From Bordetella genomosp. 11 (GTDB taxonomy: Bacteria; Pseudomonadota; Gammaproteobacteria; Burkholderiales; Burkholderiaceae_B), in NCBI RefSeq assembly GCF_002261215.1, contig NZ_NEVS01000004.1, positions 558,001 to 622,000 on the forward strand: a stretch of 64,000 bases of DNA, in the 5' to 3' direction. Made by a program: the position numbers and the translations under genes. The first letter of the stretch is position 1, and every line of letters begins with the position of its first letter. This document shows positions 39,678-43,253 of this stretch, piece after piece. The notes below the pieces were generated by a model, which saw only the letters and a program-made list of their open reading frames with translations, ran no database searches and had not been told where the DNA came from.

Positions 39678-40952
39678 ATGACTATAGCTCGTTCCCGGCC
39701 TTTTGGACAGAAGTATGCCTTCGTCGTGGTTGCCATAGCCTTTGTCGCCCTGTTGGTGGGTGCCGGCCAGCGGGCGGCACCCGGCGTCTTGATCGTGCCC
39801 CTGGAGCAGGCGTTCGGCTGGGGGCGGGACGTGACCTCGCTGTCGGCCGCGATCGGCATCTTCCTTTATGGGCTGGTCGGCCCCTTCGCCGCCGCGCTGA
39901 TGCAGAGTTTTGGCGTGCGGCGCACCCTGATTTGCGCGTTGGTGCTGATGTCCGCGGCCAGCGGCGCCAGTGTGTGGATGACCGAGCCCTGGCACCTGGT
40001 GCTGTCCTGGGGTGTGGTGTCCGGGCTGGCCACGGGATGCGTGGCGGTCGTGTTCGGGGCCACGGTAATCAATCGCTGGTTCGTCAAGCATCGGGGCCTG
40101 ATGATGGGCATCCTGACGGCCAGCACCGCGACGGGCACACTGATTTTCCTGCCGGGTATGGCGGCACTGGCCGAAGCCGGCGGGTGGCGGCCGGTCGTCA
40201 TCACGATTGCGGCGGTATGCCTGGCGCTGGTGCCCCTGGCGTGGTGGCTGATGCCGGAGCGGCCCTCCGATATCGGCCTGGTCCCCTACGGCGCGGACCC
40301 GGACCATGTGCCGCCCCCTGCCGTGAACGCCAATCCGCTGAAAGCCGCTTTCGGTGCATTGAACCGCGCTGTCGGTAACCGGAATTTCTGGTTCCTCTTC
40401 GCCACCTTCTTTATTTGCGGGTTCACGACTAACGGCCTCATCGGCACCCATTTCATCGCGCTGTGCAGCGACCAGGGCATTGCCGAAGTGCGCGCGGCGG
40501 GCCTGCTGGCGATGATGGGCCTGTTCGATCTGGTCGGGACGACGGCATCGGGCTGGCTGACCGACCGCTACGATCCACGCAAGCTGTTGTTCATGTACTA
40601 CGGCCTGCGCGGCATTTCCCTGATCTTCCTGCCGTTCTCCGACTTTTCCATATACAGCCTGGGTATTTTCGCGGTGTTCTACGGGCTGGACTGGATCGCC
40701 ACCGTGCCGCCGACCCTGAAGCTGGCGGTGGAAAGCTTCGGCGAGCGCGATGCGCCCATCGTGTTCGGCTGGATCGTCGCCGGGCACCAACTGGGGGCCG
40801 CCAGCGCCGCCTTCATGGCGGGGGCACTGCGCCAGGCGCAAGGAAGCTACTTCCTGGCCTTCATCATCTCCGGGGCCACGGGGATCGTGGCTGCGATTAT
40901 CGCGTTGCAGGTACGCAAAACCAAAGCATCGGCTGCTGTCGTGCCGGTTTGA
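39678..40952 (+). CDS. MFS transporter
   Basis: A 424-residue, 12-helix transporter. Conserved segments are the loop 2-3 sequence and GVVSGLATGCVAVVFGATVINRWFVKHRGLMMGILTAS-type helix 5 region; the exact subfamily (anion:cation symporter or oxalate/formate type) is unclear. It is controlled by the divergent TetR. The stop TGA (40950-40952) overlaps the first pyrB half-site by one base. Confidence 0.92.
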   Translation: MTIARSRPFGQKYAFVVVAIAFVALLVGAGQRAAPGVLIVPLEQAFGWGRDVTSLSAAIGIFLYGLVGPFAAALMQSFGVRRTLICALVLMSAASGASVWMTEPWHLVLSWGVVSGLATGCVAVVFGATVINRWFVKHRGLMMGILTASTATGTLIFLPGMAALAEAGGWRPVVITIAAVCLALVPLAWWLMPERPSDIGLVPYGADPDHVPPPAVNANPLKAAFGALNRAVGNRNFWFLFATFFICGFTTNGLIGTHFIALCSDQGIAEVRAAGLLAMMGLFDLVGTTASGWLTDRYDPRKLLFMYYGLRGISLIFLPFSDFSIYSLGIFAVFYGLDWIATVPPTLKLAVESFGERDAPIVFGWIVAGHQLGAASAAFMAGALRQAQGSYFLAFIISGATGIVAAIIALQVRKTKASAAVVPV

Positions 40953-41011
40953 TATACGCAAAAGGTCTGGACGAGGCTGGGCGGCGTGCGTAATATACGC
41001 AAAGCGTATAT
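40952..41011 (+). promoter_or_regulatory. pyrB promoter with ATATACGC half-site and perfect palindrome
   Basis: ATATACGC-AAA-GCGTATAT (40993-41011) is a perfect 8-3-8 inverted repeat. Its left half also occurs as ATATACGC-AAA at 40952-40962, exactly 41 bp earlier (about four helical turns). The candidate -10 TAATAT (40991-40996) with TGGACG (40969-40974) at 16-base spacing is overlapped by the palindrome. A third copy, TATACGCAAAGC, is in the coding region at 41232-41243. Confidence 0.7.
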
Positions 41012-41024
41012 ATACGAGGCCGCC

Positions 41025-42317
41025 ATGTCCATTTCCCAGCAAGCTTTCCTGCGCGATGCGATGCGTCGCCTCAACTTGACCCGCGACGTGTTCGCCGCCC
41101 GGATAGGGGTTAAGCGGCGTGCCTTGGACACCTGGCTGCTGCCGGAAGGGTCCCAGGAGTTCCGCGCGATGCCCGAAGTCGTCGAGCGATTCGTGACGGA
41201 GATCGTACAGAACGGCGACCTGCGAGAAAAGTATACGCAAAGCACGCAGAACGGGCCGTTGCGCGACCGCATCAGCGTGGAAGGCAAGCATCAACTGTTA
41301 TCGGTGGACCAGTTTTCGCGCGAATCCGTGGAGGACCTGTTCCGGATCGCCGACATGATGCAGCCCATTGCGCGCCGGCAAAAGGTGTCGCGCGTGCTGG
41401 AAGGCGCCGTGCTGGGCAATCTGTTTTTCGAGGCCAGCACCCGCACACGGGTCAGTTTCGGTTCGGCATTCTGCCGGCTGGGCGGCTCGGTGTGCGACAC
41501 GACGGGCTTCACATTTTCGTCCATGGCCAAGGGCGAATCGATCTACGACACCAGCCGCGTGATGAGCGGCTACGTCGACGCAATGGTTATCCGCCATCCC
41601 GAAAAGGGCTCGGTGGCGGAATTCGCCCGCGCGACCAATATTCCCGTCGTCAATGGCGGTGACGGCCCTGGCGAGCATCCCAGCCAGGCGCTGCTGGACC
41701 TGTACACCATCCTGACCGAGTTCTCGCGCCTGGGGAAATTGCTGGACGGCGCCCATATCGCGATGGTGGGCGACCTCAAGTACGGGCGTACCGTGCATTC
41801 GCTTATCAAGCTGCTGGCCCTGTACCGCGGCGTGAAGTTCACCCTGATTTCGCCGCCCGGGCTGGAAATGCCGGGCTACATCATCGAGCAGGCGGCCAAG
41901 CACGATAACGTCATCGAACAAAAGCAGTCGCTGGCCGAGGGGCTGCCTGGCGCGGATGTGATCTACGCGACGCGGGTACAGAAGGAACGCTTCGCCGATG
42001 AAGCGCAGGAAGGCTACGCGCCGGATTTCCAGATCAACCGCGCCATCATCGACACGTATTGCGGCCCCGAAACGATCGTGATGCATCCGCTGCCGCGCGA
42101 TAGCCGCCCGGGCGCCAATGACCTCAGCGTGGACCTGAACCATGACCCCCGTCTGGCGATCTTCCGCCAGACGGACAACGGTATTCCGATCCGTATGGCG
42201 ATATTCGCGGTGCTGCTGGGCGTGGAAGGGCTGGTGCAGCATTCTCTGCGCGACGTCACGTGGCGGCATCCCTCCCATGTCGGGCCGGACGATTCGGCCT
42301 TCCACGGACTGGATTGA
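41025..42317 (+). CDS. pyrB: Aspartate carbamoyltransferase with N-terminal helix-turn-helix-like domain
   Basis: ATCase condenses carbamoyl phosphate with aspartate, the first pyrimidine-specific step. This is a long form of 430 residues. The catalytic part starts near residue 85: S138-T-R-T-R142 (carbamoyl-phosphate loop), H218-P-S-Q221, and MHPLPR near the C-terminus. Before it, residues 1-60 read as a Cro-like helix-turn-helix (LTRDVFAARIGV then KRRALDTWLLPEGSQEF). ATG 41025 follows GAGG. No pyrI or pyrC gene is adjacent. Long PyrB proteins with this extension are known in related genera; a DNA-binding role for it is my inference. Confidence 0.95.
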   Translation: MSISQQAFLRDAMRRLNLTRDVFAARIGVKRRALDTWLLPEGSQEFRAMPEVVERFVTEIVQNGDLREKYTQSTQNGPLRDRISVEGKHQLLSVDQFSRESVEDLFRIADMMQPIARRQKVSRVLEGAVLGNLFFEASTRTRVSFGSAFCRLGGSVCDTTGFTFSSMAKGESIYDTSRVMSGYVDAMVIRHPEKGSVAEFARATNIPVVNGGDGPGEHPSQALLDLYTILTEFSRLGKLLDGAHIAMVGDLKYGRTVHSLIKLLALYRGVKFTLISPPGLEMPGYIIEQAAKHDNVIEQKQSLAEGLPGADVIYATRVQKERFADEAQEGYAPDFQINRAIIDTYCGPETIVMHPLPRDSRPGANDLSVDLNHDPRLAIFRQTDNGIPIRMAIFAVLLGVEGLVQHSLRDVTWRHPSHVGPDDSAFHGLD

Positions 42318-42353: not shown

Positions 42354-43253
42354 TCAGTCGCGTTTTTCGCCGCCCAGGGCGTCCACGAGTTCGGCCATCA
42401 GCTTGGCGAGTTCGCCCGTCATCAGCGCCATGTCGCTGTCGAATTTCTCGTCATCGTTCTGGGCCATGCTATCGCTGTTTTCCTTCAGCACGTCCAACGG
42501 AGCGATGCGCTTGACGTCCAGCGATTCGGTCAGCACGAAAGAGACACGGTCGGCCCAAGTCATTGCCAGCCGGGTGCATTGCTTGCCGGACTGGATGTGC
42601 CGTCGCACATCGTCGGCATCGATGGTGTGCTTGACATAGCGGATGGCGGCGCGGCTTTCACCCGAGGCGCGCAGTTCCGTGTCCTGGTCGATGCTGAAAT
42701 TGGCGGGGGCCTCGTCTTCCGCCAGCCATCCCGTCATCGCCGCTGCCGGCGATTGCACGACGTACAGGCTTTCCAGCGGGAATGGGTCGATCGACTTGGC
42801 CAGCAGGCCCAGCACTTCGTCCGCCTTGGCCGAGGCCGCCGCGTCGATCACCAGCCAGCGGTTGGCCGGATCGATCCAGACGCGCGTGTCGCGGTAGATG
42901 CTGAAGGCTTTGGGCAGGAGTTCGTCGGTGACCCGTTCCTTGATTTCCTTCATTTGCTTGCGGCCCGGCTTGTAGCCCTGCTGCTCTTCGATTTCCTGGG
43001 CCCGCGCCTTCGCGACCTGATTGACGACGGTGGCGGGCAGCAGCTTCTTTTCGGCGCGCAGGGTCAGCAGCATCTGGCCGTTGACGGTATGCACCAGCCC
43101 GCCGTTTTCACGTGTCGGTATCCAACCCAGGCTTTGCATTTCCAGCGTATTGCCACCCTGGTAGGCGAACTTGGCCAGGGCTTGCTCCAGCTGGTCGTCC
43201 TTCAAGGCCCAGGACGGGGAAAGGCGGTAGATCTTTAGATTCTTGAACCACAT
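42354..43253 (-). CDS. rdgC: Recombination-associated protein RdgC
   Basis: RdgC forms rings around DNA and restrains RecA-mediated recombination. The 299-residue product begins [15 protein letters not shown] and has the typical [40 protein letters not shown] stretch (in parts) and [16 protein letters not shown]. It lies in the same window as recA-recX. No anomalies. Confidence 0.97.

Follow-up and report, generated by a model that had tools for sequence, protein, structure and literature searches.

A long-form aspartate carbamoyltransferase with a predicted DNA-binding domain likely represses its own gene in Bordetella genomosp. 11

We analyzed a 64,000-nucleotide stretch of Bordetella genomosp. 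11 DNA (assembly GCF_002261215.1, contig NZ_NEVS01000004.1, positions 558,001 to 622,000; hereafter the window), in which pyrB encodes a long-form aspartate carbamoyltransferase (ATCase), the textbook allosteric enzyme. The product of this gene is an ATCase fused to a predicted DNA-binding domain, and it likely represses its own promoter through a palindrome, O1, located immediately in front of the gene. It is the combination of an extra predicted DNA-binding domain with a conserved palindrome at the gene start that makes self-repression likely. A previous sequence-only reading of this DNA had suggested that PyrB is a trigger enzyme, and the sequence comparisons and structure predictions presented here support that interpretation. 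Two properties of enzyme-repressors of the BirA, PutA and NadR kind were found, namely a complete enzyme and a predicted DNA-binding domain on one chain, and a conserved operator-like site at the enzyme's own promoter. A group of bacteria appears to have put gene control on the ATCase chain itself. The features discussed below are listed in Table 1.

Table 1. Positions of pyrB and of the predicted regulatory features in the window
Feature	Position	Strand	Description
pyrB	41025..42317	+	Long-form ATCase, 430 aa (stop included)
N-terminal five-helix HTH domain	41025..41243	+	Codons 1-73; AlphaFold2, Foldseek/VIA, Pfam HTH_3
Predicted recognition helix RRALDTW	41115..41135	+	Codons 31-37; AlphaFold2 helix 31-37
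O1, candidate operator palindrome ATATACGC-AAA-GCGTATAT	40993..41011	.	Perfect 8-3-8; ends 13 bp before ATG (41025)
O2, in-gene palindrome	41231..41249	.	~206 bp after ATG; decayed in the window, 11/16, left arm kept
O3 half-site ATATACGCAAAA	40952..40963	+	41 bp upstream of O1
Putative -10 TAATAT	40991..40996	+	Overlaps O1; weak -35 TGGACG at 40968-40973, spacer 17

Results

PyrB combines a complete ATCase with a predicted helix-turn-helix domain

PyrB belongs to the long ATCase family, since model NF008853/PRK11891 covers residues 1-430 with a score of 845 bits (cut-off, 560). Both the OTCace_N and OTCace domains are present and the catalytic domain is complete, in agreement with the sequence-only reading. 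When relatives with solved structures were searched for, the match to PyrB started at residue 82 or later in every one of the 60 matches listed out of 77. The best-ranked match to the N-terminus in a protein search was from Bordetella genomosp. 9 (98% identity).

The N-terminal region was modeled by AlphaFold2 from 33 aligned N-termini. The model contains five helices (residues 5-16, 20-27, 31-37, 51-62 and 64-71), and its predicted local distance difference test score (pLDDT) was 82-86 in blocks of residues 11-60. This five-helix fold, with a helix-turn-helix (HTH) in helices 2-3, is that of Xre/Cro-type domains, and comparison of the predicted structure with known ones placed it in the Aca1/HigA2/P22 c2 type. 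The sequence-only reading had suspected an HTH in the first ~60 residues and had named structure prediction as a way in which this idea could fail; the predicted fold bears it out. The top Foldseek/VIA matches include Aca1-DNA complexes, and the best match in the Protein Data Bank (PDB) is Aca1 on palindromic DNA. Aca1 is an anti-CRISPR-associated protein of Pseudomonas phage JBD30, and its HTH has been solved with 14-bp and 19-bp palindromic DNA (PDB 7vjm, 7c0g). Unlike the PyrB domain, Aca1 is a stand-alone small protein, and the two share 14-24% identity over the structural alignments.

Within the predicted recognition helix, L34 and W37 are invariant in the 33 sequences, and R31, R32 and D35 are at least 90% conserved. 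Pfam HTH_3 matched 20 of the 33 members at E-values up to 10 (best, 8e-4), and the window protein, at 13.3 bits, did not reach the HTH_3 gathering cut-off of 23. When the N-terminal profile was run against PDB sequences, it gave seven weak matches, of which five were to apparently designed proteins. In protein searches for relatives of the HTH (the best 120 of 509 matches, 68 matches and 116 matches), those listed were ATCases or unnamed proteins with the exception of P0234. This XRE-family HTH protein of 149 aa shows 31% identity to the PyrB N-terminus (E = 1.3e-4) and, judged by that similarity, is a possible stand-alone relative of the domain.

A conserved palindrome lies in front of pyrB

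The perfect 8-3-8 palindrome that had been reported 13 bp ahead of the start codon was located at O1. Its 17-base core, TATACGCAAAGCGTATA, searched with up to three mismatches, identified O1 as the one site in 64 kb, compared with a mean of 0.01 in 100 shuffles. To define its conservation we used 81 loci, namely the window together with its 80 nearest relatives among 202 (Achromobacter, Bordetella, Pusillimonas, Castellaniella and others). The dyad ATATRCGC-NNN-GCGYATAT was present upstream of the ATG at 14-16 of 16 positions in all 81, whereas the best match other than O1 reached 11-13 in each locus. Spacer and distance were variable, with 13 different central triplets and O1 starts 29-55 bp before the ATG.

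In the enlarged collection, O1 scored at least 13 of 16 in 154 of 171 unique loci, short forms included. The same threshold was reached in 40 of 40 loci from the family of genome G367 (40 of the 55 genomes listed were taken), in 6 of 6 from the family of G424 (6 of 8 listed genomes; the other two, G257 and G424, were obtained separately), and in all 7 additional long-form loci from a sample of the order. Conservation upstream of other long pyrB genes, on which the sequence-only reading had made its proposal depend, was therefore found both in the nearest loci and in the whole collection. Some regions had been chosen partly because a pattern scan of 250 genomes gave no match there. The duplicates L144 and L124 were left out, as were L167 and L170, where no start was found (L170 comprises residues 201-429 only); removal of four more same-contig duplicates reduced 175 loci to 171. 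L167 is without the HTH, and no site was seen in it. In L123 (genome G399), two tandem palindromes lie upstream of a long pyrB, and the matched gene has one in-frame TAG.

The consensus for NadQ, ttATRCTCannntGAGYATaa (PMC5343134), resembles the O1 motif. We considered a known NadQ site and rejected it on the basis of the core (CGC vs CTC), the central gap (3 vs 5) and the location at pyrB.

A second palindrome in the coding sequence is maintained by codon choice

The sequence-only reading had also noted a third half-site copy within the gene. The copy, TATACGCAAAGC, is present and begins at 41232; its offset from the A of the ATG is 207 bases, not 220 as had been given. Comparison among loci indicates that it is what remains of a second palindrome, O2, which is widely conserved and lies in the linker-coding region. 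O2 scored at least 13 of 16 at offset 206 from the ATG in 63 of the 81 loci, and an O2-type site with a score of at least 13 was present within the scanned stretch in 115 of 171 unique loci. Sites at this threshold (117 loci) range over offsets 200-227 with gain or loss of linker codons, and their frame is constant. Among the matches listed in the pattern scan of 250 whole genomes, many genomes had paired matches, O1 and a site ~250 bp downstream in pyrB. The distance between O1 and O2 is 232-281 bp, with a median of 245 (114 unique loci).

Synonymous shuffling within genes lowered the mean O2 score from 12.94 to 9.85 in the 81 loci, and the observed score was reached by <5% of 200 shuffles in 65 of the 81 genes. 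The codons under O2 in these loci were unusual: TAT in 78 of 81 (background 34%), ACG for 43 of 43 threonines (35%), CAA for 60 of 79 glutamines (14%), AGC for 72 of 75 serines (35%) and GCA for 35 of 41 alanines (5.6%). In other families, GTA was used for 38 of 38 valines (8%) and AGC in 42 of 43 cases (26%); these counts exclude rows scoring <11 at O2, which favors the motif, whereas the 81-locus tests kept all 81. The unusual codons and the drop upon synonymous shuffling indicate that O2 is under selection at the DNA level. On this sequence evidence, O2 is held by synonymous codon choice, as expected of an auxiliary in-gene operator.

The motif is nearly confined to pyrB

The pattern TATRCGC-NNN-GCGYATA occurred once, at pyrB, in five of seven whole genomes, and was absent from the other two. 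With one mismatch allowed, ATATRCGC-NNN-GCGYATAT matched the pyrB O1 in 13 of 16 genomes (~78 Mb), and in one of these (G440) O2 as well; three genomes had no match. Away from pyrB, this pattern matched at four places in three genomes, and the reversed control pattern at two. A looser pattern gave matches in 144 of 250 genomes, compared with ~29 for the reversed control; among the matches listed, four places away from pyrB were in long-form genomes and three matching genomes were without the long form. In the genomes searched, this near-confinement to pyrB gives no sign of a regulon and points to no gene that might encode another regulator, although the genes at the four one-mismatch sites elsewhere were not inspected. 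These four palindromes are at G001:C1:570944, G004:C25:16025, G004:C25:209649 and G005:C2:611701.

The HTH domain and O1 tend to be absent together

O1 scored below 13 in 17 unique loci, which fall into five classes: three short-form ATCases without the HTH (L125-L127); two that lost the HTH, in which the catalytic domain persists (L168 and L169); seven loci with a degenerate HTH from genomes of ~0.8 Mb (L159-L165); two whose recognition helix carries T36A and where O2 is absent too (L134, with A33E in addition, and L166); and three from the group of six loci (L138-L143) whose recognition helix is GCRRRTLDSW, where both helix and site are altered. When 166 unique loci were classed by HTH and O1, 150 had both, 13 had neither, three had the HTH without O1 and none had O1 without the HTH. 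Five loci could not be placed by the anchor (L127, L189, L190, L208 and L214); by eye, four have both and L127 has neither. A quick tree built from 78 catalytic residues contains two supported independent pairs that differ in the HTH, both in the expected direction; the number of pairs is six if unsupported branches are counted. These data are suggestive of the domain and the site disappearing together.

In the seven loci from ~0.8-Mb genomes neither palindrome was found and the catalytic part still matches, forming a natural decay series of the regulatory half. Sites in the GCRRRTLDSW group score just 12-13, and L138 retains O2 at 15 of 16. The site in this group is shifted, for example TACGCAAAGTGCATATA, and the change in helix and site sequence is a possible natural change of specificity.

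O1 overlaps a promoter-like element, and some loci have a third half-site

TAATAT overlaps O1, as the sequence-only reading had stated for its predicted -10. Of 158 loci, 152 have a -10-like hexamer matching at least four of six positions at the O1 edge, and 101 of these also had a -35-like hexamer, a lenient count with no shuffle control. The additional half-site ATATACGC that had been described exactly 41 bp upstream of O1 was found at 40952-40959. The 158 loci were scanned for TRTRCGCAAA up to 80 bp upstream of O1. O3 has a constant spacing of 41 bp (measured from one ATATACGC start to the next in the window) in 24 Achromobacter loci as well as the window; in another Achromobacter locus (L002) the spacing is 11 bp longer, and this pattern was found in none of the remaining 132.

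Discussion

In the proposed mechanism, two HTH domains, of one or two catalytic trimers, would bind one palindrome. PyrB on O1 would cover the -10 and the start, and because O1 overlaps the -10-like hexamer, its occupation would block RNA polymerase. O2 would serve as an auxiliary site to O1, and the multimeric enzyme could hold O1 and O2, together with O3 where present, for tighter repression at high PyrB levels. Release might follow a drop in the amount of enzyme or the binding of a ligand to the catalytic domain; our guesses for the effector are carbamoyl phosphate, aspartate or a pyrimidine nucleotide. Enzyme synthesis would thereby track pyrimidine demand. A more elaborate version, to which we give somewhat less than even credence, is a self-contained switch: trimers, probably paired, may present several HTH dimers that grip O1 and O2 (and O3 in Achromobacter-like genomes), with the pyrB DNA folded round the enzyme and the grip set by substrate or nucleotide binding in the catalytic domain. 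Such a switch would be the first pyrimidine-synthesis enzyme known to repress its own gene.

Several observations weigh against self-repression or against parts of its mechanism. No Foldseek match of the domain reached E = 0.001, and the full-length PyrB model was poor (pLDDT 58), so that oligomer geometry is not readable from it. A strict sigma-70 scan found no promoter in 40850-41300. O2 falls short of 13 in many unique loci, among them all but 7 of the 24 that make up the chosen set L128-L156, and has a decayed right arm in the window itself. Helical phasing of O1 and O2 was not clear in 114 unique loci (mean resultant 0.22-0.23 for periods of 10-11 bp); spacing of this kind neither proves nor forbids looping. 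The two T36A loci are without O1 though most of their HTH is kept, and they were counted as HTH-absent by a pattern chosen after T36A had been seen. The tree requires nine changes for O1 vs six for the HTH, and with two supported pairs the joint loss is not statistically proven. A site in this position could as well mediate activation.

In one alternative, O1 and O2 would belong to a separate, dedicated transcription factor encoded elsewhere, with the HTH of PyrB doing something else. Repressors of a single gene are possible, and the T36A loci keep most of the HTH without O1. However, with the motif so rare outside pyrB in the searched genomes, this factor would apparently leave its own gene and the other pyr genes uncontrolled. 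Loci in the sample with a missing or degenerate HTH had no O1, and the group with the GCRRRTLDSW helix has an altered site (12-13). We consider a separate factor unlikely.

It is also quite improbable, in our estimation, that the HTH makes PyrB an autoregulator that activates or tunes its promoter, for example to set the PyrB level or, bound at O3, to help RNA polymerase. The location of O3, 41 bp upstream of O1 and just 5′ of the -35-like hexamer, is a usual one for an activator. However, the most conserved site, O1, shares bases with the -10-like hexamer, and a protein bound there usually blocks transcription; moreover, of the 158 loci scanned, the half-site pattern detected O3 in no more than the window and 25 from Achromobacter.

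A palindrome acting in RNA, as a hairpin in the 5′-leader that provides pyrimidine-controlled translation or attenuation as in other pyr operons, has very little left in its favor. A AUAUACGC/GCGUAUAU stem is possible in the transcript, but the fold of the leader does not stand out, as 72 of 200 shuffled versions folded equally well (z = -0.33). No terminator-like site was found at the pyrB leader in the window scan, and the sole Rfam match in 40700-41400 was sub-threshold, on the other strand and inside the gene. These results led us to reject an RNA leader. In addition, conservation is seen in the arm sequence itself, pairing is broken by variants such as GCGTACA, and recurrence of the motif within the coding region fits a DNA operator. 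Finally, N-terminal extensions of other ATCases serve assembly, but it is hardly credible that this one is a folding, assembly or allosteric domain beside an unrelated relic palindrome, given that O1 is kept over several families, O2 constrains codons, the motif is nearly confined to pyrB and the catalytic domain persists without the extension in L168 and L169.

The sequence and model evidence is best explained if PyrB, like BirA or PutA, is enzyme and repressor in one chain, controls the promoter of its own gene and perhaps links O1 with O2. PutA and NadR resemble PyrB so interpreted in that one protein has two roles, including metabolite-linked gene control. The DNA-binding domain of PutA is a ribbon-helix-helix, whereas that of PyrB is a predicted Xre/Aca1-type HTH. 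PepA and PyrH are not known to be fused to an HTH, and they act on carAB, of which they are not the products. Like PyrB in the proposed role, they are enzymes moonlighting as regulators at a promoter of the carbamoyl-phosphate/pyrimidine node; PMC6245113 describes them at E. coli carAB as trigger enzymes of the carbamoyl-phosphate node, with ~230 bp wrapping PepA. In BirA, an enzyme is fused to a DNA-binding domain and represses genes of its own pathway, as proposed for PyrB; according to PMC5343134, which also names the NadR regulon, the domain occurs in only a subset of BirA proteins. BirA differs in being a biotin ligase that acts on bio genes, whereas PyrB is an ATCase predicted to act on no gene but its own, in which one of the sites falls within the coding region.

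If self-repression is correct, the purpose of the ~75-residue extension of long-form ATCases would be explained. It would also constitute a compact system for direct readout of the state of a metabolic enzyme at a promoter. Among the titles listed in searches of open-licence literature in PMC, none dealt with ATCase binding DNA or regulating its own gene; these searches did not cover subscription papers and are not proof of absence.

Among 20 genomes with TIGR00670 matches above cut-off, 11 had the long-type gene alone, three the short type alone and six both. Eight of the 11 carry the HTH, G014 has a degenerate HTH, and G021 and G045 are without it. Since the HTH form is the sole ATCase in 8 of 20 genomes, it is there most simply the biosynthetic enzyme, which argues against a purely catabolic role in these genomes, and the proposed switch would govern this de novo pyrimidine step outright. 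In the six genomes with two ATCases, one may be catabolic. A 47-kDa ATCase of Burkholderia cepacia is said to have a protease-sensitive N-terminus, a report that we did not find in the literature. Burkholderia has a long-form ATCase of ~430 aa with an HPLP motif besides a form of ~340 aa (PMC4581275), and the length class and HPLP motif are shared with the window PyrB. In its main text, that paper asks of the two enzymes solely whether one is catabolic, and the terms 'DNA-binding' and 'helix-turn-helix' are absent there, in contrast to the interpretation proposed here.

Downstream of pyrB in the window, rdgC (42354-43253, - strand) lies 36 bp past the gene on the opposite strand, so that the two genes lie tail to tail.

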